The position numbers and the translations under genes were made by a program. A model generated the notes under the pieces. It searched no databases and was not told the origin of the DNA. It saw only the letters and a program-made list of their open reading frames with translations. A stretch of DNA of 64,000 nt, from the NCBI GenBank assembly GCA_963971425.1, contig OZ020516.1, positions 35,080,199 through 35,144,198 of the forward strand, in the 5' to 3' direction. The stretch is from Bryoerythrophyllum caledonicum. Lineage: Eukaryota > Streptophyta > Bryopsida > Pottiales > Pottiaceae. Of this stretch, positions 16,411 through 60,880 are shown in pieces (the first letter of the stretch is position 1; every line of letters starts with the position of its first letter).

Positions 16411-17366
16411 GGAAATCATACCCCGAATCATACTTGGAATCATACCCAGAGTAATACCTAGATTCATACCTCATTTCTTACTCAGAATTATACCCGGATA
16501 CTTACTCAGAATTATATCCTTATACTTGAAATCATACCCAGAATCATATCCGGATTCCTACCGGGATTCATACCTGGAAAAATATCTGGATTCATATGAG
16601 GAATCATACCCAAAATTATACCCGGAATCATACCGAAATATTACCCGGATTCATACCCAAAATTATACCCGGAATCATACCCAAAATTATACCCGGAATC
16701 ATATCCGGAATTATACCTGGAATCATATCCGGAATCATAACCGGAATCATACCCGAAATCATATCCGGAATCATACCCGGAATCATATCCGAAATCATAC
16801 CCAGAATCATATCCGGAATCATACCCGGAATCATATCCGGAATCATACCCGGAATCATATCCGGAATCATACCCGGAATCATATCCGGAACCCTATACCC
16901 AAAATCATATCCGGAATCGTACCTCAAATCATACCCAGAATCATACCCAAAATCATACCCGGAATCATAAACCGGAATCATATCCGGAATCATACCTGTA
17001 ACTATACCCGGAATCACGCCCGGAATCATGCCCGAGATCATACCCGGAATCATACCCGGAATCATACCCGGAATCAAGTGAGGACTAATACCCGGATTCA
17101 TACCCAGAATCTTTCCCGGAATCATATCCAGATTCATACCCAAATTCGTACCTGGATACATACCAAAAATCATACCCGGGTTCTTACCCGGATTCATACG
17201 TAGCTACATACCCCAATTCATACCTTTGTTTATACCCGACATGAAACCCCGTATCATATCCAAATTCATACCTAAATTCAAACTTGGTATCATACCCGAT
17301 TTCGTACCCGATTTCATACCAGGTACCGTATTCAGTTTCATATCTAGTATCATATCCGGATACGTG
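16411..17366. repeat. Degenerate 12-bp tandem repeat array (GGAATCATAYCC)
   Basis: About 80 copies of a 12-mer, GGAATCATACCC alternating with GGAATCATATCC, so that a 24-bp double unit is clear in the core (16,700-16,900). Copies degrade toward both ends. Since 12 is divisible by 3, all frames stay open in places and give Ile-Ile-Pro-Gly or Asn-His-Thr-Arg strings, which I do not regard as proteins. The array ends about 360 bp from the CACTA-like right terminus. Confidence 0.9.
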
Positions 17367-21915: not shown

Positions 21916-22726
21916 TCAAGGGTGGCTTATCTTGAACACAAGATCCTAATATGGGGCCTGATTGCTTGTGTAACCAACCCTCAGCCCATTCATACACAAC
22001 TTATACAAGCATGGCGACACGTCTCATGTTCACTTGGGTTCCTTGTGGTTAACTAGTGAGGTGGTGACTTAATCCAGCCTTCTAATTGAACCCACCTCTT
22101 AAAACAAGTGTAACTTTTGCTCTAGGGCTCCGAATGCAACGTTGTCAACGCTCATGGGTTCAACTCAGCATTCCAAACTTGATTAGACCCTTAATGATCA
22201 GGTTCAGGCTTAGGTGTGACCCTGGAACCAGTTGGCAGCAGACAGGCTTCCCTATTTTCTACCAACTTATAATCCTAATTATCTCCTTGACTTCAACTCC
22301 GATTCTTATGTTTGTTTTTCTGATTCTTATTAGTTTTTTGTGCTTAACATGATGGCAGCATTCAATTGATCACTTGACTCGACCCTGGACCTCACAGCCA
22401 GCGACCAGCAGTGCACCTTCAACATATGATGTATCCAAGATCGTGAATCACATTCCACGCATATACCACATCCATTCACACAAGTATCCCACCTCAACCT
22501 CGTTGCGAATGAACCTCCGGCTGATTTTACTTACTAATGACCAATTATCCGGTTGTTTAGTTGAGTGTGAAGCAAACCCTAATTCTAGCAAAAAATTGGC
22601 AGCGCTTCCGCATGGTTTTAGTATTTAGAAATTTAGGGTTCCTTATTGCATAAGGAATTTACTACTAGCTGGGGGGTGAGGAGAGGCTCCCTGGTTCATT
22701 CGATTCACCCTCCTTCCTTCAGTTCC
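21916..22726. other. Non-genic stretch before the minisatellite
   Basis: Short frames only, and no recognised domain. The last bases before the minisatellite, TTCCGGCTCTC at about 22,722, recur just after the minisatellite at about 34,408, so the array may have expanded inside one original sequence. Confidence 0.35.
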
Positions 22727-41654: not shown

Positions 41655-41900
41655 TCGAGCTGGACTAGAGAGGTAGCTCCGAGCTGGACAGGTAGCTCCG
41701 AGCTGGACAGGGGAGGTAGCTCCGAGCAGGAGGAGGCGATGATCAACACCAGCAGTATCTCACGAGGAGCAAGACCAGCCGTGGAGGAGCATCACGATTA
41801 ACAAGACGAGGAGCAAGACCAGCCGTGGAGGGGACGAAGCTATTTTGCGTGCCTTGAGCCGTGAGCCATGAGCCGTGAGCCTTCGTTCGCGAGCCTAAAG
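41655..41900. repeat. GC-rich leader-type tandem repeats
   Basis: Units of AGGTAGCTCCGAGCTGGAC repeat about four times from 41,648 to 41,727. Next come AACACCAGCAGTATCTCACG, two GAGCAAGACCAGCCGTGGAG units, and the inverted partner string GCGTGCCTTGAGCCGTGAGC. The same set of strings recurs at 60,240-60,880. Confidence 0.8.
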
Positions 41901-42399
41901 CTATATATTTGGACCCTTTTTGGAAAAGAATATCATTAAAGTGAAAGTGAAAGTAAAAAAAAAATAGTAAAAAAAAAGTGAAAGTAAAAAAAAGTAAAAA
42001 AAAATAGAAAGTTTTCCATAAAGTAACATTTCAATTGAAAGTCTTAACTATCATCTAAGGATAAGGGCCTATTATCGTGGAATTCCTTGTAAAGTATTGG
42101 TTGTAGTCCAAATAATGAATTGTCACAAAGATGATAGGTACCCTATGACCGTGTAAGGGTTACACAACATATTGTAATAGAAGACATATTGTATATAGAT
42201 TGTACTACATAAGGCATAGTCTTATGTAGTATTAAAAACTAGGCAATTGATTCTACACTTCATTAGAGCAGACGAAGAAGCCTTGAATTTAAACATGCTT
42301 TTACTCAAATATGATCTAGGTTATTTAGAAGATGTGAAGCTTCCTTGATCCTACGCCTCTTCAGTAAGGGAGGTCCCATATATCTACACGTCATGTGCA
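41901..42399. other. Intergenic stretch with an A-rich tract
   Basis: GTGAAAGTAAAAAAAA-type low-complexity sequence at 41,940-42,015. Otherwise nothing I can support. Confidence 0.35.
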
Positions 42400-42750
42400 C
42401 TAATTCAAAATGAACAGGGTGGTGTATTGGCATGTCGGATCTTTCTTTCTCTCCTTGAAGGCTTTCATTGACCAGTCAATGAAAGAATCTTTGTATTTTG
42501 AAGGAACACTATATGCAGTACTCTTCTTGAGAAGAATTGTTCCCTCATAATCTCCCTTGGGCTCTACAACGACCACTACATTGTCTTGCCTCTCCGCATT
42601 ACTCGCATAAGCCATACGTGTCACAAGTGCAGCATCCGTACAACCTTCATCTTCCCTATCAACCTCGTCTAGCAATTGCTCTACCAACCTCGTCTAACAA
42701 TTGCTCTAGACATCATCGAGGATGACAATCTCATCTCCACAAAAGTTAGC
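42400..42750 (-). CDS. Unrecognised hypothetical frame, possibly a remnant exon
   Basis: A minus-strand frame of about 95 codons (42,687-42,400) begins MVEQLLDEVDREDEG and contains VVVVVEPKGDYEGTILLKK and FIDWSMKAFKERKKD. It has a protein-like, charged composition. Just upstream, in another frame, lies MANFCGDEIVILDDV. A short direct duplication (CAACCTCGTCTARCAATTGC, 26-bp period, 42,661-42,712) lies between the two. I recognise no family. It may be a decayed exon or a chance frame. Confidence 0.25.
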
Positions 42751-43129
42751 CATTTCTACAAAACTGTTACTTAATGTTCCTCCAATACATTGTTGTAAAC
42801 CTATTCAATACCAATAAAGGGAAGGGGATGCAATCCTTATAGGTAGGAAGTCTTTGAATTTGGTGTAGACATTGACTTTAGGTCATACCAATGTAGTAAA
42901 AATTGAAGGATCCTAACACCACAAATAAGGTGGGCCAATAAAACCTTATTGATTACACCACATAAACATAAAAAAGCCTTGCAGATTAGTTAGACGTTAA
43001 AAAAGAACACAAATAAGACAGATAACTATCAAAGGTAGTTGAAAAGAAAAGCGTCGGGGGGTGGTAGAAACTCCAACATAGAGTGTCATTTTTTATCCAC
43101 ATCAGGTCCCCTAGGTGCACCTTCCTTGT

Positions 43130-43210
43130 CGGGTTTTTTTTGACCTGGACAACACCGCGAGCGGCGGTGCTATTTTCATTAAAAGCAACCGAAGAAGGAA
43201 ACAACTCAAC
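43130..43210 (-). mobile_element. Possible retroposed LINE or SINE 3' end
   Basis: On the minus strand a short GC-rich stem (CACCGCCGCTCGCGGTG) follows TTAATGAAAATAG and is itself followed by GTC and an A8 tail. This is the usual look of a plant LINE 3' end. Target duplications were not found. Confidence 0.35.
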
Positions 43211-43494
43211 ACTATCTTTCTAAACCCTGAAATCCTAAACCATGTCCACGATTCCAAGGCTTAAACTATCTCGAACACTGCCACTAGCTACCAGCTAGAA
43301 TACAATAACATGGAAATATAAGAGGGCAAAGAGAAAAATTAACCACATGGAAACTCAACCTAGGAGAATAAAAGCTGCTTGTAAAGCGGTCTGATGGGGG
43401 CGCTAATAGGCCAAGGCTATTGAGGCCTGTGAGGGAGGAAAAGTAATGACGCACAGTTTAATCCTTTAGGTACCGTGACAGTTTCGCACCAAAA

Positions 43495-44205
43495 CACTTC
43501 AGAATTGTTTAATTCTAATGCAATGATTCAAGAAGGAAAAAAAAACTATCATTTCTAGTTTTGACCAAAGGATCTCATATACGACTTAATAAGTAACATA
43601 CTCACAATATTTCACAAACTTTGAGCGCACGAAGTGAAAGATTATATTAATGTTTATATAAAAACAACTGCTTCATTATTTTTCCAGCGTTCCGTGGATT
43701 AGCAAACTTTGACTTCACTTGGTGTCAAATATTTTCACTACAGAATGTGTAAATCCATTATCCTCGTGTTGAGCATGATGTAAGTTCCTTCTTCACCAAA
43801 TTTTAGAGGTAGAGGAAAGGTGTGTAGCATATTCAAAACAACTATGGAAGGAGTGGAGGTTTGAAAATTGCCAATTTGTGTTTGCATTTTTTGTGAAATA
43901 AATATGTTTTAGATTGATAATTCAAATGGTCAATAAGAAGATTTCCACTACATATTCTTGTGCAATACAAAATTGTATATAACATGAAGATCTCTAAGCT
44001 TTATGTGGAAAAGAAGAAGTTTTTTTGGTACCGTGCCCGACAATGTGTTAAAATGTTTGACTTGGGTTAATATGCTATTTTTCACGAAAGACAATGATAT
44101 ATTTTTTCATTATGAAGGAAAAAATATGTCTTGCAAGTATTGAAAATCTCACATTCAATACAGTGTCCTAGCAAAAGTTTTTCGAGGTGCCCAAAGTGCT
44201 TGCTC
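43495..44205 (+). repeat. AT-rich dispersed repeat R1, copy E
   Basis: Orientation as copy B and close to full length. Landmarks are TTAATAAGTAACATACTCACA, TTTGACTTCACTTGG, GTGTAGCATATTCAAAA, AATATGTTTTAGATTGATAA and TATTGAAAATCTCACATTCAA. It shares the forward arm with the stretch at 20,815-21,115. Non-coding. Confidence 0.6.
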
Positions 44206-44778
44206 GGCACATTCAAAATTCGAAACCCTAAAACTGTTTCATGAAATGTCGGATTTAGGATAAAACTGATCTCCCAAAAACGTCTTAGTAATGTCCTTCT
44301 ACATTGAATGATTGGAGATGGATAAAACTCAACTCAAAATGTTGAGATTTCAATATGCGTTACACTTAAAGTATGAATGGGAGGTAGTAGAGATAAATTG
44401 TCAGTCAACTTCCTTGCTGAAATTCTGTCATAATATTTGACTTACAATGAATTGCAATTCGTCGTTCGGCATAATATATATTTCTCGACACCAGTAGAAT
44501 AGGTCATAATCTCCATAAGCCCTCAGTTATTATAGGTGTTTTTCATGAGTTGTCACAGATTTTCTTCTATAAACATATAAAAGGATAGAGATTTAAAATC
44601 GAAGTTGTATCGCCATATTCATTAAATTGAGACATTTTAGAGTCTCAAACGACTCACTTTGAACTCAACAGTAGTAAGGATGGAAGTCTTGAACTTTACC
44701 ATATTTAATTTACCAATGATAGGGCTTCAATTGAGAACCCTACAAAATGTGCAACTCAACTATCAACAATCAAGTAGA
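44206..44778. other. Intergenic AT-rich stretch downstream of the methyltransferase-like gene
   Basis: No gene that I can support. I looked here for a terminal inverted repeat matching 59.5-60.2 kb and did not see one. Confidence 0.35.
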
Positions 44779-44862
44779 GCAAAGAACATGGCAAAGAAGG
44801 GATATTGAATGAGAGTATTAGCAAAGAACATGGCAAAGAAGGGATATTGAATGAGAGTATTT
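44779..44862. repeat. 42-bp perfect tandem duplication
   Basis: Two adjacent copies starting GCAAAGAACATGGCAAAGAA, at 44,779-44,820 and 44,821-44,862. They differ only at the last base. Confidence 0.95.
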
Positions 44863-44934
44863 GCAAAGGAAACAAAATATCTACATTAGTGGTTGTAATA
44901 TTTGGCAAATATCTTGGATTGAAGAAATGTTAGT

Positions 44935-47900
44935 TTAACATGACATGTCCTCAGAGCTTTCGTACGACGTAGAAATATAATGCAGCTCTACGTCAGCCTC
45001 ATCATCAATGAATTGAAGAACACGCCGATCAAAATAACGTTCTCTACTAATTGAACACGGGGATGATGCAGCTGTCTGCCTAAGGGCCTCTTCTGCATGC
45101 CATGGAGCCATTATGTAGTCTCGAGTGGGGGAACAAACGTTGGCCATCATTCTGCAAATGCCACAACCAAATTAAGGAACATGTGAGAAGGTGCCTCTAG
45201 AGGCCATATTATTCTACACATAGGGCTACAAATTTGAACATAACAAGGTAGAGACATTTAGAGGACTTCCAAATTAAAGATGGAAATTGATTGGAAGACA
45301 GAAGGTGCTTACGTACTGAATCTATTGCGCTTAGCCACCGGTTGGATTTGGATCTCGTCGGCAAGGCGGGAACCAATGGACGAAGACGCAGTAGGCCTTG
45401 GAGTATTAGGGGTTACTGCACGCAGAGGCTTCAATAAGGCCTCAAAGACATCATTGTCTTGCTCCAAAGCCACAATGTGGCGCCCAATGTCCTTGCATGC
45501 GTGAATAGAATTTCCTGACAAAAGTGAAGTGTAGAGAATTGTTATTGTTTAATTGTGGATGCAAATTTAATGAATGAAAGTATATCAAAAGTATTACCTG
45601 TGGATGCGAACGCATCAAGGACAAGTGAGCCCGGCTTAGTAAGAGCTACAATGAGCATTCGCAGAACAACGGTATCCTTCTCGCGGGGACCCCTCCATGG
45701 GACGTTCCCATTCATAGTTTGTGACTCTAGGGAGGTGTAGTTGAAAACAACATCAGAGTCGGAGACATCGACGTTTAATTCCGACAAAGTCTCATCTGGA
45801 GCAACAATGAAGTCTTCCGGTTGAACTACCTTGGGCACAAATAACTGAACCCTGAATCGTCGGGACTGTCAAAAATAAATGATAAAAGTGAAAAGACTGT
45901 ATAGAAGTTGAGATGAATGTGTAGGAACTAAAAATTGATGAGAATGATGATAGTGTATTACCTTTACTTTTCGATCCACACTTGAATGCAACGGAAGCTC
46001 GTTTATACCCCACCACTCCCGTAACATGTAGAATCCGTACGCATCGGCGTAGCTCAAAATATCGGTTCGGACCTTGGGACATTCAGGTGCAAAGGCCAAA
46101 ATACTACCCTGACGGTGAAGAAATTCATGCCCAAACTCGAAAACAGACTCAACATCCTTTTTGTTGTAAATGTTCCACGTAGGAACGACAGTAGGCTGTA
46201 AGGAGATTGAAGGTATCGGCATCCCATCAGGGAAGTCTCCAATGATTAGATTGAAGCCACCGTGCGGGCAAGCCTCCGAACGTTCTGGGATAGTGGTCGA
46301 AGCTTGGATCTACAAGAACGTAGGATTCAAGGGTTAAACCATGCATGCATTCAAATGAACGACTATAAAACAGTAGTTGTCTTACCTCCATGCAGAACTT
46401 GTTCATGTTGGCAAGAACCGGGTGCACTTGCGGTAGAACATCCATTATCTTTGTGAGGCTTGTGTTTTCAATAAGCGTTGTGGACACAAAGTCCACGCCA
46501 GGCTGTTTGGTGGATTTTCCAGTGGCCATCTTCCTCTTCAATCTTTTGAAACCTATGGATAAGGGATTAGACGAGTCCATAAGCTGAATATGAGTAGCGG
46601 GGGAGATAGAGAGACGTTGCTGAGTCTCGGGGGGTGCCGTGAAGAAGGATGTCTCTTGAGCATCATGATCATCATCGCCATCAAAGGGCAAAGCAGCATG
46701 TAGTTGTTGCCGTCTTGGTGCTGCATCTCTTGCCGCGAGCTGTGCTTCCAAGGCTGCCGCTTTGCGTGATGCCGTTGCCTCCGCCGCATTTGCCGCTTGT
46801 AGCTTCCGCGTCACCTCTTCTTCTGCCTCCTTCAACTTCCTCGCGACCTCTTCCTCAGCAGCTTTCTTCTTCTTTGCATCTTCCTCGACTGCCTTTTTCC
46901 GTGCCCCTCTAGTCTTCTTCATGGGTTCTGTCACAACCGTGACCAACTCTGTTCCTGCTAGAGCAGGCTGAATAGAATTCCGTAGTGGAATGTCAAATAG
47001 AGGTGGTCTATTCTTTTGACAATCTAAGTACCACCCACATTTCTTCCAATGCTCCCGATCCCAGTCCTTCATAATCTCCTCAGTGAACATGCAGCTGTCA
47101 CTTGTAGGATCCAAGTAGTTTGCAAAGAAAGGGGGGATTCTTGAAACTGCCTTCCTGGGAAGCAACACGTAATGGAAGTACCTGTATAAAGTTCGATTGA
47201 CAGCCTCAGATAAAAACTTCTGCTCATCTGGAGTGTTGTTCTTAGAGACACCTTTGGTTGCCAACTCAGTGTTGAAAGCAATTTCCCAAAGTTGAATGCG
47301 CATCTGCTCAACCCAGTCAACAATACTTGGAATGGCCTCTTCATCAACCGGGTGATAGTTGACAGTCTCGTTCAGTTCAGCCAATGTACCATGAAGAAGA
47401 TCATTTGTTTCAGAAGAGATCTGAAATCACGCACAATGTATAATTAAAATTCACATGAAAGTATCAAACATGTGATAATGGGAAATGGTATCAAAATCAA
47501 CACACCTGTGCCCACCAGGTAGCCCGAGTTAGCCAAAGGGGGAAGTCGTGGTCATTGAATTTGGTCTCAGGAAATCTCACAGCTTTTCGAACAGAGGGCT
47601 TCATGTTCCACCGCTCAAGCCACTTAACCTTCATTGCTGCAGACATCGCGGATGTTGCCAAATAGAACAACTTCTCTTGTGACATCTCTCGGTCATCTTC
47701 CCGCCTCTCGTAATGGATTTTAACCTGATTGAGAAAATCAGGCGTGTGCTTTGGGTCAGCCGGAGGCAGCTGCTTCTTCACCTCAGTGACATAGTCCTTC
47801 TTCACCTTCTTCACCTTTTCCAATACTTCGTGATGCAAATCCTTCCTATTCCACTGAACTGTCTTCTCTGGATACTTCTCAATAAACATTCTGTTGGCAT

Positions 47901-50900
47901 GCGCTGCTGCTTCACCAATCTCTTGCTGAATTGAGACACAAAAATCATTAGAAAACCCTGTGTAAGAGACTAGAGAGCCACTGCAAGATCCTCCAAAATA
48001 AAGTGCCGCCAACGGTACCACCCTCAAAGGAGGTTAGAGGGAGGAACTCCTTGTCACTCTAATAGAGGCGCCGCTAGCGGCTCCCCTTTTCAGACTACCC
48101 AAAGGTACCTCGCAGCCTCTAAAAGGGAAGGGTGGCCAACGTCATTCACTCCACAGGATGCCTTGAGCAAGCCACTTGCACCTCATAAACGGTGTGGTGC
48201 TGGCATCACTCCCTCTTGACACTTCCCCAAGGAAGCCATTAACACCTCAAGAAGAGGGTGCCGCTAGCGGCACTCTCTCTAAGGGGTGCCTTGAGCAAGC
48301 CACTTGTACCTTCAACAGGATAAGCGGCTGGAAACACTCCCAGGAGAGGCTGCCTCAAGGAAGCCATCAACATCCATTAAAGAGAGTGCCGCCAACGGCA
48401 CATACTTTACTGGATACCTTGAGCAAGCCACTTGCACCTCTAAAAAGGTGAGCCGCTCAAATAACTCCCTCTACAGGCTTCCCCAAATAAACCATCAACA
48501 TCTAAAGAAGAGGGTGCCGCTAGCGGCACTCTCTCAATGGGATGTCATGTACAAGCGACTTGCCCTCCAAAAGATTGAGCTGCTGGTAATACTCGCACTA
48601 GAGGCTGCCTCCAGAAAGGTATTAGCATTATGAAAAGTGAGTGCCGTTAGCGGCACTTCCTTCAAGGGGTGTTGATGACATACAATTAACTCCACAAGGC
48701 CTTTTCACTAAGAATGATCATATATTTGACAAATATTGATTGTCAGATAAATGAAATGAAGTTGTAAAAGAAGAATAGTACCTGATATAGTACTCCAACG
48801 AGTCCTTTAACAGTAAGCGTGTACCATGTTGGAGTTCTATCACGTTTTGCAATCGCATCATCAATATCAGCCTTTGTCACTAGGTTCTCAAAATAAGAGA
48901 GGGGTTGCCCAGCAATTCGTTGAATTCTATACAGCTTGTGGACTAGATTGGATTTCACATGGCACCTCTGGTTCCGCCTGCAAAAGGAATGGATGGAGTT
49001 AAGGGACAATGTAGGCAATTTTTATAATTTAGTAAATTTCGTGAAATCAGAACTTACCAATTGACCTGGTGGAGTGCAGTCACGAGTGGTCCTGTCGAAC
49101 CTGTTGGAACATCCAAGATAATCGACTCCACTGCGTAGTGCCAATCTTTGTCATCACCGTGGTCTCTGTTGATAATCTCCAGCCAAGCTTTGAGACGATG
49201 GTTCCCATCCCAAACATAGAACATCTTACCCGAGTATTTCATCAAGTCTTCATCTGCCAGCAACTGTGCCTCAAACTCGTCATTCTTCTTCTTCCACAAT
49301 GGACTCCATCCAAGAATAATCTCCTCGCTAACATCAAGTGTCTTCCCGTGATCATTTTGCAGTGCAACATAGAATACGCCATGACCTTCCATGTATCCGG
49401 TGCTCACAAAGTGAGCCCCTAAAGAGCTGACGTCGTTTGAGAGAGGCGGCCTCACCGCCAATACTTCCTTCATTCTACACAGAGGGATATCAATCTTGGA
49501 CTTCTTTCGTGGCTTCATCCGTAACTTCTCCAGGACAAGACTCGTGTTCACTGATTCCTGTAATACAAGTGAATCCATCTCTCTCCTCAAATCCTCGGCT
49601 GACATTTCCTCCCGAAGATCATCATTGACGCTCTCATCCTCTAAATTGTTGTCATTGTCTTCATCATCATTGGAATGGACCCCTGCATCTAGAGAATGAT
49701 TAATCAAATGGAATAGAATACAATACAGAACCGCTTTTGATAATCTAGATGCATTTGCTACCTGAATTTTCACAAATTGGAGGTTGCACGTTGCCCACTT
49801 GGTCGAATTCACGTTCCACGCCCTCAAGCTCCATATCTGCAACAAAGCATTTGTGTTAACTTCAAAATTTAATGAAGACAGTCTAACAAACAGTCACGAA
49901 TTTACATCAGTGGTTTCCTGGTTTCACGAGTGAACATCACCGGTTTATCGAATAATCATCACTAGTTGCACGAATAAACGAACTGGTTTCACAATTATAC
50001 ATTCCTGGTTTCACGAGTGAACCTCACTCGTTTCCAATATACATCACACGTTTAGAAAATCCTCGCACATAATGTCGTCACTGTAGAAGTACTTAATGAA
50101 CAAATAGTACCAAATGTGAAAGTACCGAAATCCACTATGTTTGGAAGGACCCCTGTGAAGGAGGTGCCGCCAGCGGCACTTGCTTCACAGGTGTCCTCGA
50201 ACCTTGCACCTGTCCGGCCATCCTACAGTTGCTCCATTCGCGCCCAAGGTTAAATGCAGTGAGGAGTCCAAGAGACTATCGACGTTCTCATCCTTCACAA
50301 CAGTGCCCACAGTTGTCTGTACTAATATCAAATCCTTAAAAGCACTAATATCCCAGACTTCAACATCCAGGTACATGCGTAGTATTGCCTTAAGGTCATG
50401 AAAATCATCTGGTTTTGGATCAAAATATTCGAAGCTAACATTGACAACCTCCTGGACAAATCGAAATTATCACAACCACATCGTTACTTCAATACAAAAC
50501 TGTAACAAATAACTGAGACACTGACAGTCGATGAGTGAAAGAAGCTCCATTCCGCAATCAGCTCTCCCGTGAGAAATCGTCATTGCAGACAGTGAGAAAT
50601 CGTCATTGCTCCCAGTAAGAAATCGTCTTTGCAGACAACATATCAGAGGTGTGAATGGTGGGTATACTTCACGATATTTCAGCAGTAAAACTATTTGAAA
50701 CCACGCATACATATTAATGAAATCGCATTTCAATCGATTCTTCCTCTTCCCAACCCAGCTACATGTAAGGAATAACGAACATTCACTCTAAAAATCTGCA
50801 TTGCCAACATAGAATTGTATTTTGTTCGTGCCCTTATCACTTCTCAACGCTCAGACTACATTACTTTGCTTTCAGTGAACAATACACTCCAACTCTACAT

Positions 50901-53900
50901 TCGCACATGCATGTGAAGTTGGCTGAGATTAGCATCCTCAGCAGATCTCCGATAAATTAACCTCGCGAGTGACGAGGCCATCCTACAGTTGCTCCATTCC
51001 TGGTTTCACGAGTGACGAGCCTACGAACTGCTCGTGTATACGGACCAGACCGCATACACATGCGCCCTATATTCCGCGGAGAGACTCAGATTGTACTCCC
51101 TCCTCGAACAGGACTTGCAATTGTGTGTATACAAATGTGATGTGTTCATAAATAAAGGTTTAGAATTATTACAGTTGGTTTTGACAGAACTGATATTTCT
51201 GTTGCATGCATACATGCACCAAGGTATGAGAACACGACAACCAGGTACTACTAGGTCACGATGTGCACAGAATGAGTTCGTCAGAGATTTTGTGGACCTC
51301 TTCATTAAAGTCGAATTCGCACGCTGCGAATCATGTGGGGCATTGGCGATCCCCCTCTGGCGAAGTAGACTACTTCAATCGAAGCCAGACTATTTAACGT
51401 AACGATAATATAAGCTAGCGGAGTTATATTATACACATGGCCCCACCAACAGGGTCTGGCGTCTACCGTCTCTGACAGTTGAGTTCAGACTTCGAAGCTG
51501 GAGAGGTTGCAACACCGTTGAAAACGATTGGATTCATTCAATGGCAACGTGGCCAGGAAATATAAGCCAAGACTAATACGCGCGAGTCGCGAAAGGAGGC
51601 ATCGATCAGTGGGTTCACTTTTCTGATTTGGTAGAACACCTGTGAAGGAGGTGCCGCCAGCGGCACTTGCTTCACAGGTGTTCTACCACCACTCACCTGC
51701 CCGGCCATCATACCTACCCGGTATCAAGAATCGGTGGACAAGTTCTGCAGTTTCGTCGACATCTCCTAAGTTCAACAGTTCATCATTTATCTTCTGCGTC
51801 CACGTCGTCTGCTGAACTGCTAGGTATGATGGTCGGGCAGTAGTGCACTTCTAGGTATGATGGCTCACGAGTGCACTTCTATGAACAGCTAGGTATGATG
51901 GCTCACGAGTGTACTTCAACGTCTGCTGAACTGCAGAACTTAGAAGTTCTCTGAATGTGAATCGTTGGACAATTCATCAATTAACATCTGCTTCGACGTG
52001 GACGCCAACAACGTTGTTTAACTAACTGCAGCTCCGACGTGGACTCCAACAACATTGTTTAACTATCTACAGCTCCGACGTGGACGCCAACAACGTTGTT
52101 TAACTATCTACAGCTCCGACGTGGACGCCAACAACGTTGTTTAACTAACTACAGCTCCGACGTGGACTCCAACAACATTGTTTAACTATCTACAGCTCCG
52201 ACGTGGACGCCAACAACGTTGTTTAACTAACTACAGCTCCGACGTGGACGCCAACAACGTTGGTGTAACTAGCTTCTGCTTCAACGTGGACGCCAACAAC
52301 GTTGATATAACTAACTACAGCCTCGACGTGGACGCCACCAACGTTGAATTAACCAGATTCTGCTTCGACGTGGACGCCATCAATGTTGGTTAAAAAAAAC
52401 TCCAACAACGTTGTTTAACTAACTACAGCTCCGGCGTGGACACCAACACGTTGGATTATCGAGCTTCAGCTCTGATGGATGAACGTGATGCAGTCATACC
52501 AAGGCCACTACACCAGATCCCATCAGAACTCTGAAGTTAAGCTCGATGAACGTGATGCGGTCATACCATGGCCACTACACCAGATCCCATCAGAACTCTG
52601 AAGTTAAGCTCCTATGGGCCGAAATAGTACTGGTCCAGGTGACCATCCGGGAAGCCCCTATGCTGCATCCATTTTGATCTCTATAAAAAATCCAAGTCCA
52701 ACGATTCAGATTCATGTCGATTTGAAGCTGGATCGACAACTGTAATATTTAGTCAGTAACAAGTTTGTTTGGTAGATCCACGGTGAAGTAGGTGCCGCCA
52801 ACGGCACTTGCTTCACAGTGGATCTACCAAACAACCTTGGTACAAATTAAATATTACAGTTGACGATCCAGCTCCAAATCGAGCTGAATCTGAATCGTGG
52901 CTCTTGCTTAACAGGTGTCGTCATGGCATTCACAGGGCCATTTTACTTCAACTAAATAGAACGTCACTTGTTGACGTTGACCGAAATCTACAACCGCAAC
53001 TACACTAAGCATGTAAGTGCAACAAATAATGTTACTGGAACTCTACAAGTTATGTGTACGACACAATAAAATACCTCCCTGCATTGAAGGTTTCCGGTAT
53101 TTGAAGTTAAGCAGAGTTTGGTAGACGTTTAGCGGAGTTTAATTGATGTTTAGCAGATTATTGTTGACCTTTAGCGGAGTTTAATTGACGTGTAGCGGAG
53201 TATTATTGTCGGACACACAGGGATCTGTTGACATTTATTAGACATCTGTTGACGTTTACAGGGGTCCTGACTCTCTACTCTCCCTCTACCTTACTCTCCT
53301 GACTCCCTCCTCTCCCTCTCCCTACTGTCCACACTCATCCCTAAACTGCCTCCTTACTCTCCCGCTCTCTTACTGTCCCGACACGACCCTTACTGTCCCG
53401 ACTCCTTTCTCTCCCTCACCCTACTGTCCCGATCCCCTCCTGTCCCGACTCCTTACTCTCCCTCTCCCATACAGTCCCGAGACGACCCTCACTGTCCCGA
53501 CTCCTTTCTCCCCCGCACCCTACTGTCCCGACCCCTTTCTGTCCCGACTCCTTACTCACCCTCGCACGCACTGTCCCGACACGATCTTTACTGTCCCGAC
53601 TCCTTCCTCTCCCTCTCCCTACTGTCCCGACCCCATACTGTCCCGACCCCATACTGTCCCGAACCCAACTCCTTACTATCCCGACTCCTTACTGTCCCGA
53701 CTTTGGAACTAAACGAAACAAATATTCTTTACTTTTTCACAACTCCTAGTTTCGGCCTCTTGTCAGATCCATTCCAAATAGAACAATTTAGTCTAGACTT
53801 TTGCAGTTAAGATGTATGTGGATACCTTCATAATCAACATGAGTAAGTCTTGCAAATCAAATGAACTTACCTGCCAAGAGATCCCTTGCACGCGATGAGT

Positions 53901-55001
53901 TTCGCTTCCCACGTAGCTGCGTTTGAATCGCTCCTTCTTCGTCTGCGACAACAACAAGAGTTCAACAACCACCGTTTAACCTCCACACCTCTTTCTAGCA
54001 AATCAACATCAACAAATTTCAAGTTCAAAACCCTATTCCAATATCCAAGTCGAAAACCTAATTTCAGAACCCTTTTCATAATATTACCTTCTGTCAATTC
54101 TAAACTGTGACTACGTGCAACCTTCCTACTGTACTGAAAAAAACGACCAGAAACAGAACTGCGAGCATCCTTCTACTACGCTCTCAACCACGACCTCAAA
54201 CACAACTGCGACCATCCTTCTTACTCCGCTCTCAACCACGACCTCAAACACCAACAAGTGCGTTGACCAAACCCTAAATCAACCACCAAAGTCTTTAAAC
54301 TTGAGAATGAAGAATCACACAAGCTAACAACAAAGGAAAGTATTGATCCATCACTTCAACTGTAAAAAAACACGACTTACAATGTAATAGAGAGTCACCA
54401 ACATTACTCGCAAACTTCTCCAAGCTTGAAAACGACACAAAACTATAAACTAAAGTTACATCTTCAAAGCTGCAAATGAAAACTACTCAATCTATGGATT
54501 TCTTTGACTAGACTTCTAAACAAAATGAGCTAAAATTTTTAGGGTTATGTCATCAAGTAAAAGGAACAAAAACTTCTTGTTACGACTTTTGGTTCTCACG
54601 GTATAATTCAGAGAGTAAACATCTTGTTGCATTTATTGACTTTACATGTTGTAACGTCTAGAAGGTTAATAATCATGCACATTACCTGATTGTAAAGGAG
54701 GTTGTCTTGAGTATGGGTCTCCAGATGCCATGTCTGCTCCCAGTGATGTGCTGCGACTCTCGCTTCTACTTGGGGATCCATGTTCCAGTTGCCCTGGGCC
54801 CTGGACAATCGCGGGTATACTTTCAAGATCTAGATTATCCTCTTCACTCATTTTTCCAGTCTGAACAACTTGATCGGAGAACTCTAACACTTTGGCCGTC
54901 TCACCAATCTCTGCAATTCTAGCTCTCTGCTTCTTTTCTCTCATCATTTTGTTCCTCAGCATGGTCTTCCTATTGCTGAAACAAAACTTCTTCTTTGGCA
55001 T
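44935..55001 (-). CDS. ParB-like domain / amino-methyltransferase-like protein, eleven exons
   Basis: Proposed minus-strand exons are 55,001-54,686, 53,942-53,871, 49,836-49,762, 49,688-49,058, 48,977-48,782, 47,925-47,506, 47,420-46,386, 46,309-45,962, 45,865-45,598, 45,514-45,313 and 45,151-44,935. Every junction is GT..AG. Phases agree and there is no internal stop, giving 1,259 residues. If the first two exons were wrong, the ATG at 49,834 still gives 1,129. Residues of about 215-425 are ParB/sulfiredoxin-like with the core FYVWDGNHRLKAW (DGNHR about 315-319). Residues of about 735-800 are a Lys/Glu/Ala coiled coil. The C-terminal part has the circular-permuted beta-class order of N4/N6 methylases: FNLIIGDFPDG (about 935-944), then KPGSLVLDAFASTGNS (about 1,108-1,123) and ACKDIGRHIVALE. 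The catalytic motif reads DFPD where DPPY or a close form is usual, so activity is uncertain. The gene is divergent from the transposase gene. Confidence 0.75.
48003..48656. repeat. Tandem array of about 127-bp units each centred on a 16-bp palindrome
   Basis: Palindromes close to GTGCCGCYARCGGCAC start at 48,003, 48,068, 48,258, 48,386, 48,514 and 48,641, with a decayed one near 48,132. The last four are 127-128 bp apart, and each unit also carries TTGAGCAAGCCACTTGYACC. The array fills most of the intron between 48,781 and 47,926 of the minus-strand gene. Copies at 48,258 and 48,514 are perfect GTGCCGCTAGCGGCAC. Confidence 0.9.
50147..50196. repeat. Hairpin with palindromic tip, copy 1
   Basis: The arms GGACCCCTGTGAAG and CTTCACAGGTGTCC flank the palindrome GTGCCGCCAGCGGCAC (50,164-50,179). 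It lies in the 4-kb second intron of the minus-strand gene, beside the BCCIP fragment. Confidence 0.85.
50240..50451 (-). pseudogene. BCCIP: Captured exon of BCCIP (BCP1-like) host gene
   Basis: Behind a good acceptor (TTTGTCCAG), the minus frame reads EVVNVSFEYFDPKPDDFHDL, then MYLDVEVWDISAFKDLIL and QTTVGTVVKDE. This is the conserved N-terminal block of eukaryotic BCCIP/BCP1, a nuclear chaperone-like protein. Homology stops soon after GTVVKDEN, and no other BCCIP exon is visible. The piece starts in phase 0, while the surrounding gene's exons join in phase 1 without it, so it is best seen as a gene fragment sitting in an intron. MULE-type elements are known to pick up such fragments. Confidence 0.8.
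51034..51402 (+). pseudogene. Possible captured fragment of a host gene (RNA polymerase I largest-subunit-like?)
   Basis: A 122-codon plus-strand frame has protein-like composition, with AERLRLYSLLEQDLQL, NEFVRDFVDLFIKVEFARCE and SCGA. The C..CGA ending after a helical stretch recalls the zinc-binding clamp region of the RNA polymerase I largest subunit. The second cysteine pair is missing and the match is by eye only. It lies in the same intron as the BCCIP fragment, in the opposite orientation. It may be a chance frame. Confidence 0.25.
51630..51687. repeat. Hairpin with palindromic tip, copy 2
   Basis: Perfect 18-bp arms, GGTAGAACACCTGTGAAG and CTTCACAGGTGTTCTACC, flank GTGCCGCCAGCGGCAC (51,651-51,666). 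The inner arm CTTCACAGGTGT is shared with copy 1. Confidence 0.92.
51995..52475. repeat. 41-bp minisatellite, about 12 units
   Basis: The unit GACGTGGACGCCAACAACGT plus TGTTTAACTAACTACAGCTCC repeats with a 41-42 bp period and grows more diverged toward the right. It lies in the 4-kb intron. Short open frames across it are artefacts. Confidence 0.93.
52478..52544 (+). pseudogene. 5S rRNA-like 5' half (67-bp tandem duplicate)
   Basis: This segment repeats the first part of the following 5S-like sequence, from GATGAACGTGATGC through AGTTAAGCTC. It is directly adjacent to that sequence with a period of 67 bp and few mismatches. It lacks the internal box C and the 3' half. Confidence 0.8.
52553..52670 (+). 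rRNA. 5S rRNA-like sequence, full length but diverged
   Basis: The 118-bp segment lines up with plant 5S rRNA over its whole length at roughly 80% by eye. It matches at GATGCGGTCATACC, GATCCCATCAGAACTC, GAAGTTAAGC (box A), TAGTACTGG, GGTGACC..CCGGGAAG (box C) and the closing TGCATCC, which pairs with the 5' end. A TTTT terminator follows at 52,672-52,675. It sits alone in an intron rather than in a 5S array, and the differences suggest a pseudogene or a 5S-derived mobile element (5S-type SINE, or an LTR of the Cassandra kind). Confidence 0.75.
52701..52898. repeat. 198-bp imperfect hairpin with palindromic tip, copy 3
   Basis: Arms of about 90 bp pair from ACGATTCAGATTC / GAATCTGAATCGT at the base through TTTGTTTGGTAGATCCAC / GTGGATCTACCAAACAA. 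The tip is GTGCCGCCAACGGCAC (52,792-52,807). It follows the 5S-like sequence by about 30 bp. The inner stem GGTGAAGTAG/CTTGCTTCAC resembles the other two hairpins. Such a long foldback could be a miniature transposon or a small-RNA precursor. Confidence 0.88.
53090..53230. repeat. Short tandem repeats TTTAGCGGAGTTTAATTGAYG
   Basis: About five degenerate units with a period of about 22-26 bp, in the 4-kb intron. Confidence 0.7.
53270..53700. repeat. TACTGTCCCGACTCC minisatellite
   Basis: A pyrimidine-rich array built on TACTGTCCCGAC with CTCCCTCTCCC spacers. A higher-order period near 105 bp is visible between 53,400 and 53,620. A Gly/Arg/Ser frame on the minus strand is a by-product. Confidence 0.88.
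54157..54250. repeat. 47-bp tandem duplication
   Basis: Two copies starting AACTGCGASCATCCTTCT, at 54,157 and 54,204, in the first intron of the minus-strand gene. Confidence 0.85.
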
Positions 55002-55634
55002 TCTCTCACTGCTACCAATGGCTGATTAGTTTTGCATCCTAACCAGACCACTTAACCAATCCAGGCAAACGTATATGCCAATAAACCACATCACTACCAA
55101 AAGATAATTGACTCAGCTGCAATATTGATTTCCCATACTAATCTTATATTGCCACCACAGCCACCTCCTTAACGGGCTTAACTGATTAAATGATGAACCC
55201 TCGGCGAGATTTCTATTACTTTGCATCCATCACCTTTAATTGAATTAGATAACCACTGTTCCTATTCAAACATATAGCCGTCTTTACAACACTTTATTGG
55301 GCTTACGTCCAAGATGTATCGTATTTACTATAATCTCCCAAACCGTCTCGCCCGCCAAAAAGGATCTAAATTCTAAATTTTAATCAATATCTGGCGTTGT
55401 TCCCTTTTTATCCAAAATAAGAACATAGAGGGCGTGACTCAACTAAATAACCGATGGCGCCACTGAGAGCCAAATATCAATTCTCGCTCTATTGAATAGA
55501 TGCATTTTACCCCTCCGTTTCTTACCACATAATTACCTTGACCTTCAGGCTCTCGAGTGAAACCTATATAAGGCTCCACATTCTCTTGTTTCTTCCTCTT
55601 CAAACTCTGTTGTGTTAATGGTTTGGTTATCGTC
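55002..55634. promoter_or_regulatory. Bidirectional spacer between the divergent methyltransferase-like and transposase genes
   Basis: The start codons at 55,001 (minus) and 55,635 (plus) face away from each other across 633 bp with no gene inside. A good TATA box, CTATATAAGGC, at 55,564-55,573 would place transcription about 30 bp further on and leave a 5' leader of about 35 nt for the transposase. For the minus gene a weaker AATATAAG lies at 55,150-55,143. Shared control of the two genes is inference. Confidence 0.55.
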
Positions 55635-58600
55635 ATGGCTACTATTGAGGATCATCTTGTCCAGAGTGTACTCATCCGAGGAGATGTCCAGGAAGTACCC
55701 ATCTCATTCAATCTATCAGAGGATGGATACGCTGTTGTAAAGTCTAGTCGACTAGCTTCACGATTTCAGCTAGTAGAGAGAGGCTTGCACATTGATAAGG
55801 ATGTTCATTATAAGGAGAGTGGAGAGATTTCCCATACTATAGCTCAAATCTCTAGTATTTGTGACGATTGCGAAGTGTGGTTGTTGAAATCAGGAGAGTA
55901 CCGAGTGTATGGGACAAGGATTAGTGAATCTGGTACTCCATCTGTAATGTTGACGCCTAGACAACCCTCAACTGTTGCAGAGGTGACACCGCTCCTGTCT
56001 AAGGTGAAAATTGAAGCCACTGAAGATACCATCCTTATTCTCAGTGACGACTCCGACACAGAGTGCTTCCCTAGTACCCCAATTAGCATATTTCCAAAGT
56101 CGGAGCCTAGTCCACACATTCCAATTGCGAGTCCTTCTGTTTCTGCAGGCCCTTCTAAAATCAAACCACCCTTTGCACCGTCTAGACTAGCTCCTGTTAG
56201 TATAGTGGAATGCCTCCGAAGTCTCAGCACCCGTCAAAGAGCAAGGTCGGTATTGAGTAAATTAGATTATACTGCCATGACAATCGAACAGGTGAACGTT
56301 CTTCCTGTGACTTTTGACGGTGACCGGATCTTTGAACTTCCCTCACTAGGAAACTACACGCGATCGTCTAAGGCTGGTCTTTTGGAGGGGATGGACAAAG
56401 CTTATGACGGTAATGCCTGGACCCGGACAGTCACGTCCCACATTAAGTCTGAGCACGACCTCACGTTTAGAATGTCCTCTTGTTTGGGGAATCTCCTGTG
56501 CACCAACCCCACCTGCGACTACCTGAATCGAATCCATCGCACTTCTCCCAGGAATGAAACTGAATGGGAGGGCACCGCGGACTCTCCCTTTAATCCTGGT
56601 TGTGACCCCCCTCTTAACTCCACTGTCGTCTGTTCGGTCTGTCGGACCCCTCCTACTTGCTTAAGAACGTGTCCCGCTAAAATTTACTATGTCCTTGGCC
56701 AGAGCCATCAGAGTCGAGCGTGTGTCCATCTGGGATTTCACAGTCATTCGGTTAGGACGGGAGTTTGCAGGGAATCATCACACATACTGAAGACTCGCAT
56801 CGCAGAGCAGGTTGAGAGGACACCTACAGCAACAAACTCGTCTATTGTCCTCGAGGCGAGCAAGGACTATCTTGGAGAGTTACTTCTCTGCCCTGATGGT
56901 GTTACAAAGAAGACGTTGAGTTTTGTTGAACTTGTCCCACTCCTAGATAAATTCAAGCAGATGTCCTCTCCTAGTATCCGGAACGAGGTGACTACTTTTA
57001 GGCACCTCCGCCGTTACGGTGAACAAGATAGCATCACCAAGCTCAGAGGTTCCAGCAACTGGGCCTTTGTACAGGAAAACCGCTTTCCGGGGCAAGGTAA
57101 AGAAGATGACAAGGTATTCATATTCAAGATGTCAGAATTAGGACCAGCGAGTGGCGTTGACCTGGTCAATCGAATGCAGCCTGGAGGTGATTTAGAGGAG
57201 TCGTGGATGATGTTTGACCACGTCAAGCGCCACAAGACATGGACTACGATGGCATGTCATGTGTACGACTCCACGTACTGTCGAGTGATGACAATCGCTG
57301 TGTGCGACATGATGTCCGAAGACGCCAATGCCCAAGTGCTATTCTGGAAGAATCTCAACGCAGTTGTTGCTCGTCACGACGTTGAAAATCCCAATTTCAA
57401 GGGATTCATGGCTGACAGCGCCCAATCGAACTGGATTGCCGTGCGCATAGTTTATGGAAATGGCGACAAGACAGTCCCCATGCCCAACCGAGAACGCACG
57501 TGCCTTTTCCATTGGGTCCAATCTTTGGAAAAACATACACAGGCAGATATCAGGGCAGACCTACGCGATCAACACAAACGGCTGTGCAAACAATATAAGG
57601 ACTCTAAGTCGATGGAAGAGGCTGAAACGAAGTACCTTGCAATCCGCTCATGGTGGTTATCATCAGGAGCAGCAACAGAGGAGGGCCTTCCACGTCTTGA
57701 TTTATGGCTGGCGTTCTGGCATTTTCGATACCGACAATGGGGGGGCTTTATGGAACTCGTAAGTCTTCTGCACTTGTTATTCACCTTCATATATTTTTTC
57801 AGCCTTACTCTTTTCCTATGATCATGAATACCCAATGTACCCTTTTATGAAGGTGCTGCTAACGGCACCACCTCCAAGGTGGTCATTGTTAGAGAATCCG
57901 TTGACAAACCTTGAGCGGTGCAGCTGGATGAGTTTCCAAAGAATGTTCACATGTATGCCACGTCACATAATTATTATTTGGAGCCAACATGTTGTCGTCT
58001 TCGCAGAATATGTCCCTATCCGAGTTGGCGGAGATGCCTTCCTGCAATCTTGCCGAAACCATCCACAACAAGTGGTTGCAACAATCAGGCAAGAGAGGCA
58101 ATGACTTGTATGTGGCAACCGTCGATGACATGGTACGTGCCTTCATGCAAGTTGTTGGGTACTATCAATTTCTAAAGGGTGAGAAGGCTGGGACCGGACC
58201 AAGCAAGGAAGAACTTCGACTACGTACCGCCCAACGTACAGCAGAGCGGTCTGGAAATGCAAAAGTTCTCCACGCGGCCCTTGCCAACATGCCTGGCGCT
58301 GCCACCTTTTGTACTCGTGAACCTCATCTTGAAGGTGAGGAAGTCTTCCTTTCTCTAAAACGGAAGGCTGACCTTCCTCCAGGTTCAGAATTCGACTCCC
58401 ACCGACCTGATAAGATTAGTGTATCACGGCCTCGGGTGAGAATACAACAAAGTAATCGCAAAATAGTGGACCTGACCAAGGAGGACTGCCCCCAGGAGTT
58501 GGATGCAGTGCTAGAGGTTGAAGACAACGTCCCGTCCAAGACTCCACCTTCTTCGCCTCGAATTCGGCATGTCACCGCAGTTCAGGAGACCGTCTGCAAT

Positions 58601-59458
58601 GAAAGGCAGTGGCATATTGCGAGACTCCATAGCCGATCTGCAAAAAAATGTTTTGCTCAACAAGCGCAAACAAATAAGAAATGCGTTGCCATGATCATCC
58701 AAGATGGTAAGCCCACCGCCGCCCCTACATACATTGGTATCATGGATAACTTCAGGAAGGCTAGGGAAGAGATAATGCAATTCTTCTTTTGCAACGACGA
58801 CATTGAGCGATGTGTGAAGGGCACAAGACGGAGATGGGTAATGACCAGGCCACAAGTACCAGACGTGTGGCCTATCAAGATGGGAACGAACCTCACAAAG
58901 AAGGAGATTCTAGCCTTGGAGAATGCAGGTTTTTGCCTAGCTAAATACGTGGAGCTTTCCCCTCGAAAGCTTTTTGTTGACGAAGTCGCCTCCCTGGACC
59001 TCAAGGCCTATCCTACCCCTCCCAACCCTGACGAGCACCCTAAGAAGAGGTATGGTAAAAATATCCGCAGGAACGCCAATGCACCTACTACTAAGCAGCT
59101 CAACAGTTGCGCTTCTGCATTGTCTGTTGTTGGTAAGATTTGTAGGATTCGTATGGTTCCCCCTAACGCATTGGGTTGCATTGTCACCTTCGAGTCCAAA
59201 TCCATTTCACAAGTATCAAGGTATTTGGTTACCATTGGACAGTTTCCAAGTTGTGATTGTTCAGCGTTTACAGAGATGTCGAAGAAGTCACTTGGCAAAC
59301 GTGGGGCGTGGACATACTGTAAGCACTTATACTACATCCTCAACATTTTTTGTGGACTAGATCCGGAGGTAGATGTCTTCATCCACAGTCCTAGTTTTAG
59401 CTGGTACGAGATTATGCGGATTCTCCAAGTTCTGCTTCTAAAACATTATGGTCCTTAG
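55635..59458 (+). CDS. MULE-like transposase with SWIM zinc finger
   Basis: Exon 1 is 55,635-57,758 (708 codons, donor GTAAGT) and exon 2 starts at 57,924 behind GTGCAG. The N-terminal third is variable and acidic. Residues of about 255-400 are Cys/His-rich (MSSCLGNLLCTNPTCDY, CSVCRTPP, HLGFHSH), like the zinc domain before the core of MULE-type transposases. The core shows FDHVKRHKTW (D528), GFMADSAQSNW (D594), CLFHW (C623/H626) and PSCNLAETIHNKW near 58,055, whose Glu fits the third catalytic residue. The C-terminus has a SWIM finger, CDC at 59,252 and CKH at 59,318. The start of exon 2 (LDEFPKN...YYLEPT) and the long downstream frame from about 57,989 are in different frames, so a one-base shift or an unseen small intron lies near 57,985. 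The other regions read openly. The start ATG at 55,635 follows a TATA box. Confidence 0.75.
57853..57868. repeat. 16-bp palindrome in the transposase intron
   Basis: GTGCTGCTAACGGCAC is a one-step variant of the palindrome found nine times in introns of the divergent gene. It is flanked here by a short inverted CCACCT/AGGTGG element and lies in the intron 57,759-57,923. Confidence 0.8.
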
Positions 59459-60239
59459 TAATCTCAAGTGTATCAGAACTTTGTATTGTACTACTGCTCA
59501 TTTATGAAAATGTTGTGAGACTACAAGGGCCACAACCAGTGAGTTTTAAATAACATACCACACTACTCTAAACCATGCATGCACCATTTTATGTGGAAAA
59601 TACTTCCCCCCTACATTACACCTACTGCTCTCATCTATATCACTTTCTCTTGTCAATCCATGCCCTAAATCCTCAACTCTAAATCCCACCCATACCTACT
59701 TCCTATTCTAAATTCTCCTCCCTATTTATCACTATTCCAAACTCTCTATCTCTCTACTAATCTCAAAGTCTATCTCCCAGCAGTCCCTAAACCTACTTAT
59801 CCATGTCCATGAAGTCTCTTCATCGTAATTTCCCTTATCCTCATACCTCTCCATCCTGAACTTTCCGATTGTCTTATTGTCCTTATCCAGAACTCTCAAT
59901 AATTCTCCACGACCATAGAATATTCCTCTCCAAACTTGACCCTAAACTAGACAAAGGCATCTCCTTAATTGTCTCTTTCTAGACCTCTCCCCCACCATAA
60001 TCATCCACATCCGTACCTCTCCTTCTCCCTAACGATCCATAAACCTAAAACCTTTAGTTCTTTACACGCAAATGTACGGAGTGTTCCATCATAAATTTTT
60101 ACAAAAATAACTATAAGCAGTGAAACTTTTGCTATTTAATCCACGGTAATAGGTCCAAGTTATATTTTAAAATTAGAAATATCTTCATCAAAAAATATTT
60201 TCTTTTACTTTTTTTTCTAACTTTTTAGCTTTGGGCTCA
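59459..60239. other. Non-genic C/T-rich stretch downstream of the transposase
   Basis: TCTCC/CCTAA-rich sequence without coding frames (59,600-60,050). No terminal inverted repeat matching 44.2-44.9 kb was seen. Confidence 0.35.
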
Positions 60240-60880
60240 CGTCCAAAGGCTCACGGCTCACGGCTCACGGCTCAAGGCACGCAAAATAGCTTTCCCCGCC
60301 GTGGAGGAGCATCACGATTAACAAGACGAGGAGCAAGACCAGCCGTGGAGGAGCATCACGATTAACAACATGAGGACCAAGGCCAGCAGTGTAAGCATAC
60401 TCACACCCACGGGTAGGTCCGAGCACACTCACACTCCACGGATAGGCCCGAGTACACACAGCCGAGAGAGGAGGTCCACACCAGCATTGGAGGATCCCAA
60501 GAGGAGCATCACGATTAACAACACAAGGAGCAAGATTAGCTGTGGAGGAGCGTCACGATTAACAACACGAGGACCAAGGCCAGCAGTGTCAGCATACTCA
60601 CACCCACGGGTAGGTCCGAGCACACTCACACCACACGGGTAGCTCCGAGCTGGACTAGAGAGGTAGCTCCGAGCAGGAGGAGGCGAAGATCAACACCAGC
60701 AGTATCTCACGAGAAACAAGACCAGCCGTGGAGGAGCATCACGATTAACAAACACGAGGGGCAAGGCCAGCATCACGACCAAGGCCAGCAGTGTAAGCAT
60801 ACTCACACCCCACGAGTAGGTCCGAGCACACTCACACCCGACGGGTAGGCCCGAGTACACACAGCCGAGGGAGGAGGTCC
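60240..60880. repeat. GC-rich leader-type repeats shared with 41.66-41.90 kb
   Basis: GGAGGAGCATCACGATTAAC recurs at about 60,303, 60,347, 60,500, 60,545 and 60,731. A second unit, CATACTCACACCCACGGGTA with GGTCCGAGCACACTCACAC, recurs three times. At the left end GCTCACGGCTCAAGGCACGC is the reverse complement of a string at 41.85 kb, while the neighbouring GTGGAGGAGCATC strings are in the same orientation in both places. This fits rearranged leaders of related LTR elements. Confidence 0.8.

Follow-up and report, generated by a model that had tools for sequence, protein, structure and literature searches.

Mutator-like transposons (MULEs) generate target-site duplications of about 8–11 bp. In MuDR of maize (mudrA/mudrB) and in the VANDAL elements of Arabidopsis, which carry VANC, terminal inverted repeats (TIRs) and target-site duplications (TSDs) of ~9–10 bp accompany a transposase and a second protein, and such second proteins serve transposition or anti-silencing. 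KDZ and other eukaryotic transposons carry DNA-modifying enzymes of the TET/JBP type, and fusions of ParB to an N6/N4 methylase are a prokaryotic and phage layout. To our knowledge, few eukaryotic transposons pair their transposase with a DNA-methylation-type gene that is under selection; we found no paper joining ParB, a methyltransferase and a plant transposon among open-licence papers, and an earlier mention is possible.

The element described here has TIRs, TSDs, a transposase-like gene and a second gene, as do MuDR and VANDAL elements, but the second gene, in divergent orientation, encodes a predicted ParB-like/methyltransferase-like fusion and the transposase has no Pfam match. Like KDZ-type elements, it combines a DNA transposon with a gene related to DNA modification, although the transposase is of another kind and the predicted fold is that of an amino-methyltransferase rather than a TET/JBP dioxygenase. 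It shares with the prokaryotic and phage fusions the order of a ParB-like N-terminal and a methylase-like C-terminal part, but differs from them in its introns, its long middle region and its altered motif IV, and its ParB part has no significant sequence relationship to theirs. An open reading frame that resembles those fusions, L096 (G001:C63:13651-13872), has 444 residues with ParB_N (DGFHR) followed by a tail that looks methyltransferase-like by eye, in which DPPY is seemingly missing when read by eye. Passages of PMC8885841 describe N4CMT of bdelloid rotifers as a bacterially derived gene of the host that encodes a chromodomain and is tied to transposon silencing; the authors knew of no eukaryotic homologues. 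N4CMT, too, is a eukaryotic instance of a permuted beta-class N6_N4_Mtase domain, whereas the gene here belongs to a transposon and has an altered motif IV. MT-A70 enzymes, treated as eukaryotic 6mA enzymes in PMC12695648, whose main text does not mention ParB, are also amino-methyltransferases of eukaryotic DNA but belong to a different family.

The window that we analysed is a 64,000-nt stretch (C3:35080199-35144198) of a genome of 437 Mb in 894 contigs. This genome has 58 matches to the chlorophyll a/b-binding family, which makes a photosynthetic host of the green lineage likely. It contains an 18,466-bp DNA transposon at 41832–60297, in which the ParB-like/methyltransferase-like gene is the second gene. 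The element is delimited by these features:

41822–41831, unstranded: left TSD of 10 bp, GCCGTGGAGG, identical to 60298–60307
41832–41918, plus strand: left TIR (GGACGAAGCTATTTTGCGTGCC...), an 85% inverted match with the right end
60216–60297, minus strand: right TIR, from the inverted match with the left end and from copy boundaries
60298–60307, unstranded: right TSD of 10 bp, GCCGTGGAGG, identical to 41822–41831

The TIRs are ~87 bp long and 85% alike between the two ends of the element. We read nine other copies alongside the window copy. The left boundary at 41832 recurred in three of them, which were all those whose read stretch included the left end, and the right boundary at 60297/60298 recurred in seven, the remaining two lying at 60302 and 59877 in the raw alignment. 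Perfect 10-bp duplications, different each time, flanked all four copies read with both ends (GCCGTGGAGG for the window copy; CCATCCATAA, TTATGGTATT and AGCTAGCGAT for three other complete copies). With the left 401 bp of the element as query, 33 of 42 listed genome matches started exactly at base 1. A 1-kb probe from exon 7 of the second gene had 22 near-full-length genomic places at identities of at least 90%, and one of 1.5 kb, taken from the divergent gene, had 22 full-length places at identities of at least 91%, the window being included in both counts; the two sets of places adjoin each other in nearly all cases. We conclude that the two genes are mobile together as one 18.5-kb unit with inverted repeats and 10-bp duplications, and that the ParB-like/methyltransferase-like gene is almost certainly part of a DNA transposon unit. 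The first-pass annotation of this DNA had raised transposon cargo as one option, and the copies, inverted repeats, 10-bp duplications and pairing with a transposase-like gene bear it out; to that annotation we add the divergently oriented partner gene, which is transposase-like, and both the TIRs and the TSDs.

LTR retroelement repeats, with Ty3-like open reading frames read by eye, lie on both sides of the 18,466-bp element, which was apparently inserted within an LTR retroelement. We considered whether the gene is part of an LTR retrotransposon and rejected this, since the retroelement-like sequence stops at ~41.8 kb and resumes at ~60.3 kb, with the element in between. Elsewhere in the genome, at C6:18099090-18099853, a copy of the element's left end stands ~760 bp from a short inverted end, a possible non-autonomous deletion derivative.

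The second gene lies on the minus strand. Combining canonical splice sites near the expected junctions gave 1,152 open chains, from which the exon model was picked by score. The best-scoring chain, 44935–55001, has eleven exons, GT–AG boundaries at all introns and a single open frame that encodes 1,259 residues and ends in a stop, so that the eleven canonical exons and ~1,259 residues without an internal stop proposed earlier hold in the predicted model. The four peptides quoted at that time are all found in the joined protein in the stated order: FYVWDGNHRLKAW, FNLIIGDFPDG, KPGSLVLDAFASTG and ACKDIGRHIVALE. The exons, each placed by the best-scoring splice chain, are listed below with any additional basis in brackets:

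54686–55001, minus strand: exon 1, with the start codon at 55001
53871–53942, minus strand: exon 2
49762–49836, minus strand: exon 3
49058–49688, minus strand: exon 4, candidate ParB/sulfiredoxin-like domain with a DGNHR motif (all 19 aligned exon 4 sequences have DGNHR)
48782–48977, minus strand: exon 5
47506–47925, minus strand: exon 6, without an assigned domain, under the strongest constraint (pN/pS 0.133, per-exon counts)
46386–47420, minus strand: exon 7, linker with an Ala/Glu/Lys-rich coiled-coil-like stretch (coiled coil by eye)
45962–46309, minus strand: exon 8, the motif IV position, with GDFPDG where DPPY is expected (diverged loci; hhalign)
45598–45865, minus strand: exon 9, family form NFTS..SQSMNG.VPWRGPREKD and the start of motif I, VLDAFAST (relatives of the methyltransferase exons)
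45313–45514, minus strand: exon 10, remainder of the motif I region, GNSIHACKDIGRHIVALE (alignment)
44935–45151, minus strand: exon 11, including the stop of the ParB-like/methyltransferase-like gene

Two of the nine other genomic copies keep the eleven-exon frame open together with every splice site, and the same exon order is found again in diverged paralogs. We consider the open frame to be more than chance because of these two intact copies, the lower divergence of coding stretches (see below) and the recurrence of the exon order in paralogs; we rejected a chance open frame in view of the constraint and of the splice sites common to copies. At the level of sequence, the predicted eleven-exon gene is thereby confirmed as real. 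Its long intron 2 contains a 5S rRNA-like sequence at 52553–52671 (Rfam RF00001, 69.2 bits). A 67-bp piece of this region occurs twice at 52478–52611, with more repeats in several other element copies, and the sequence may be an expanded 5S-derived insert.

Divergent from the second gene is the transposase-like gene, which we read in two parts:

55635–57757, plus strand: exon 1 of the transposase-like gene, from the conserved region of its relatives, with a donor GTAAGT at 57758 by eye
57989–59458, plus strand: in-frame second part with an approximate acceptor, from open frames and comparison of copies

Twelve relatives of this gene were fetched, eleven at 69–71% DNA identity and one at 86%, and the region FDHVKR...VYDSTYC...GFMADSAQ.NW...ERTC.FHW is common to them. 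A SWIM-like CxC...CxH pattern (CDC...CKH in the window) was read by eye at ~59252–59328. Read by eye, the gene has a putative likeness to MULE transposases with a SWIM finger, and the 10-bp target-site duplication falls in the MULE range. Neither part was matched in a Pfam search, which gave one sub-threshold hit at E 0.29 and no MULE or SWIM profile.

The pairing of the two genes extends across a large family. In protein searches of the genome, the best 150 of 1,644 candidates for the methyltransferase exons all had E <1e-22, and the best 150 of 1,763 candidates for the ParB-like exon all had E <1e-69. A ParB-like exon lay upstream on the same strand, at a distance of up to 20 kb, for 96 of the 150 listed methyltransferase-exon matches; in the corresponding controls it lay on the opposite strand for three and downstream for none. 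Likewise, 36 of 40 listed transposase matches had a divergent ParB-like or methyltransferase partner within 20 kb (41 rows gave 40 positions once two pieces of one place were merged), and the four without a partner may stem from the ParB-like and methyltransferase lists being limited to the best 150. Subfamilies whose methyltransferase exons are ~50–70% identical keep the gene pairing and order. Among the matches listed, seven ParB-like places on seven chromosomes have a common score of 269.9 bits, which fits recent bursts.

We compared the coding sequences of the ten copies, with indels and stops treated as gaps or skipped codons. Pooled over 45 pairs, pN/pS was 0.286 for the ParB-like/methyltransferase-like gene and 0.273 and 0.280 for the two transposase-like parts. 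A neutral simulation with the observed transition/transversion ratio, estimated at the gene's own third codon positions and applied to one pair at 6% divergence, gave 0.69 (range 0.51–0.88; 60 runs). Exon 6 had the lowest value (0.133) and exon 3 the highest (0.668), with 0.228 for exon 4. Divergence from the window was 3.2–4.8% in five coding stretches (exons 4, 6 and 7 and the two transposase parts) and 6.6–11.5% in five non-coding stretches. We conclude that the second gene and the transposase-like gene were under similar purifying selection in the past. The first-pass annotation had supposed that the gene is or recently was functional and had proposed an estimate of selection between copies; the estimate falls well below the neutral value, and this purifying selection, together with the open frame, supports recent function.

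In seven of the nine other copies, the second gene is damaged by one or more stops, frameshifts or splice changes, and therefore most of the copies that we read are decaying. Such damage would be expected of a captured gene that decays as a passive passenger, useless to the element. We consider this reading very unlikely, given a pN/pS far below neutral, the conservation of pairing and gene order across subfamilies that are only ~50–70% identical in their methyltransferase exons, and a relative of the same layout in another organism (described below). The eleven-exon open frame and the constraint could also reflect a domesticated host gene of prokaryotic origin. However, there are ~22 near-identical dispersed copies, precise TIR/TSD units are found wherever both ends were read, and the constraint equals that of the transposase, so that we give this possibility next to no weight. 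The domestication proposed earlier is unsupported because the gene sits within mobile multi-copy units; for the window copy, a lone domesticated gene is contradicted by the copies, TIRs and TSDs, and neither a low copy number nor lost ends were found. We conclude that the gene probably helps the transposon rather than the host.

The C-terminal part of the protein very probably has a permuted beta-class N6/N4 methyltransferase fold, judging from three kinds of profile comparison that agree with the amino-methyltransferase-type domain first proposed. The Pfam profile N6_N4_Mtase (PF01555) scored 26.4 bits with the whole window protein, just below the cut-off of 26.7, and 28.9 bits with the isolated domain. 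It was found in eight of nine family members at E values up to 1 (best 1.4e-6), the nine being the window and eight of 20 fetched loci, with loci that had stops, or were partial or redundant, left out of the alignment. A PDB profile search returned DpnA (5hek; E 0.0016), RsrI and CcrM at E 0.0016 to 0.14, with an unrelated TetR regulator ranking among them. Both sets of matches are confined to the motif I part, and motif IV is spanned by hhalign only, which against five phage methyltransferases gave a probability of 95.7% and an E value of 9.4e-9 over 205 columns, with motif IV preceding motif I in the permuted order.

In the hhalign comparison, DPPY of the five phage enzymes stands opposite DFPD within GDFPDG; the window thus reads DFPDG in place of the catalytic motif IV, [DNS]PP[YFW]. 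Of 20 diverged loci fetched, exon 8 could be read in 19, and all of these have D-x-x-D-G. The predicted SAM-binding motif I is retained in the family alignment, strongly conserved along with the acidic region that follows it, and motif IV is rewritten. A distant multi-copy methyltransferase clade (L087–L090; for example C3:25317), with eight places in the PF01555 genome search, reads DQPF at motif IV in the three loci that were readable among four fetched. Since DQPF is near canonical, activity may yet be retained somewhere in the family as a whole.

We weighed the possibility that the element encodes an active DNA amino-methyltransferase that would place 6mA or 4mC through D-x-x-D-G and so mark or protect the element or block its silencing by the host. 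The strong conservation of motif I and the next acidic region, the retained first Asp of motif IV, the constraint on the methyltransferase exons (pN/pS 0.215 for exon 9 and 0.224 for exon 10) and the DQPF of the one diverged clade would all accord with activity, but the aromatic residue and first Pro of DPPY are absent from all 19 diverged loci and equally from two related contigs (L091 and L092, below) that read DVPE, and exon 8, which carries motif IV, is less constrained (0.415). The altered catalytic motif would thus count against a standard 6mA/4mC writer, and we regard an active enzyme as doubtful. A modified, possibly non-methylating module appears likelier than a writer because a conserved D-x-x-D-G stands in the place of DPPY, and we lean towards a pseudo-enzyme.

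The assignment of the N-terminal part, which the first-pass annotation had called ParB/sulfiredoxin type, is less firm. All 19 exon 4 sequences, and also L091, contain DGNHR, which has the form of the Box II-type motif (G-x-x-R) of the ParB/sulfiredoxin fold. An alignment of the window with 13 of 18 fetched exon loci was used for profile comparison. The Pfam profile ParB_N (PF02195) matched none of these 14 family members, nor L091, and a PHROGs search gave phrog_1033 at E 0.3 for a single member. Against five ParB/sulfiredoxin sequences, taken from PF02195 matches in G001, hhalign gave probabilities of 2–3% over 13–18 residues around the motif, with 0.1–0.4% for two unrelated controls. An AlphaFold2 model from 14 sequences is of low confidence (pLDDT 58.8, pTM 0.61); its order of strands and helices would suit the ParB/sulfiredoxin fold. 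Thus, of the two profile matches anticipated, N6_N4_Mtase was obtained and ParB_N was not, and the ParB-like assignment stands on the DGNHR motif and on the compatible order of elements in the low-confidence model, without agreement from profiles or hhalign. On this footing we slightly favour a ParB-like fold.

Profile scans with the ParB-like part returned no relative among viral and GTDB contigs. The methyltransferase profile returned one phage enzyme at 26% identity from viral contigs and, from GTDB, two contigs (L091 and L092) of a single bin, Synechococcales AVDCRST_MAG81, which we take from its name to originate from desert crust. Further searches for close prokaryotic or viral relatives gave weak phage methylase matches and one match at E 3. 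The two GTDB contigs are 90.6% alike over their overlap. Besides the middle region, L091 contains a ParB-like exon at 38% identity and a methyltransferase region with DVPED, and its reading frame is broken where the window has the exon 9/10 junction; L092 begins later and contains the middle and methyltransferase regions, also with DVPED. Those of their open reading frames that end before the last methyltransferase exon had no Pfam methyltransferase match. Their introns, and the fact that there are two copies, suggest that the contigs come from a transposon of a crust-dwelling eukaryote, moss or alga, and were mis-binned; they are probably contamination of a cyanobacterial reference bin. The prokaryotic origin proposed earlier therefore finds no support in these scans: the ParB part has no relative, and the methyltransferase part has one phage relative at 26% identity and two eukaryotic-looking GTDB contigs.

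We propose that the element is an autonomous TIR transposon of the Mutator-like kind and that the second gene is its accessory gene. The transposase-like protein would cut and insert the element, and the second protein would act as a helper, its ParB-like N-terminal and middle parts holding it on element DNA and its C-terminal methyltransferase-fold domain binding SAM and DNA. As a modified, possibly non-methylating module for DNA binding or sensing, this domain might serve anti-silencing or the licensing of transposition; VANC and mudrB proteins have such roles in other MULEs. A helper role of some kind is likely, and an accessory protein that binds or marks the DNA of a Mutator-like transposon is, as a whole explanation, the reading that we moderately favour. 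A large and recently mobile family with the motif series DQPF, DVPE and D-x-x-D-G could show how a DNA methyltransferase fold comes to serve as an accessory DNA-binding protein, and could reveal whether green-plant transposons manipulate host epigenetic silencing with adenine- or cytosine-type enzymes of their own.

We also considered short palindromes as possible sites within the element:

48003–57868, unstranded: ten 16-bp near-palindromes like GTGCCGCYAGCGGCAC (at most 3 mismatches), all non-coding and within the element

Each of the nine other copies has 7–10 such palindromes at up to 2 mismatches. Exact matches number 397 forward and 410 reverse genome-wide, with 0 and 0 for the reversed control, and are often clustered at spacings of 64, 75 and 139 bp. 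Among the matches listed, 16–18 of 100 places, all on C1, are in or beside known element copies. All ten in the window lie inside the element, yet hundreds lie elsewhere in the genome, and we therefore rejected the palindrome as an element-specific site: on present evidence it is not specific, because it is abundant outside known element copies. A role as cis-sites is possible but speculative. Our fullest proposal is a tentative one, which we think rather unlikely: an ancient and large family of plant-lineage DNA transposons would encode its own ParB-like/methyltransferase-like DNA-binding protein, whose rebuilt catalytic centre would let it recognise the element's DNA and mark or shield it, with the clustered 16-bp palindromes as possible sites. 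If true, modules of the partition and DNA-modification types would be combined in one transposon system of eukaryotes.

Two tandem arrays lie elsewhere in the window. An 11-kb array at 22717–34271 has a period of ~38, higher-order periods of 50, 64, 88 and 114, and extreme strand asymmetry, with an AT skew of about -0.63. A 12/24-bp array of AATCATACCCGG occupies 16414–17199 and is overlapped by two open frames on opposite strands, 270 and 191 codons long.
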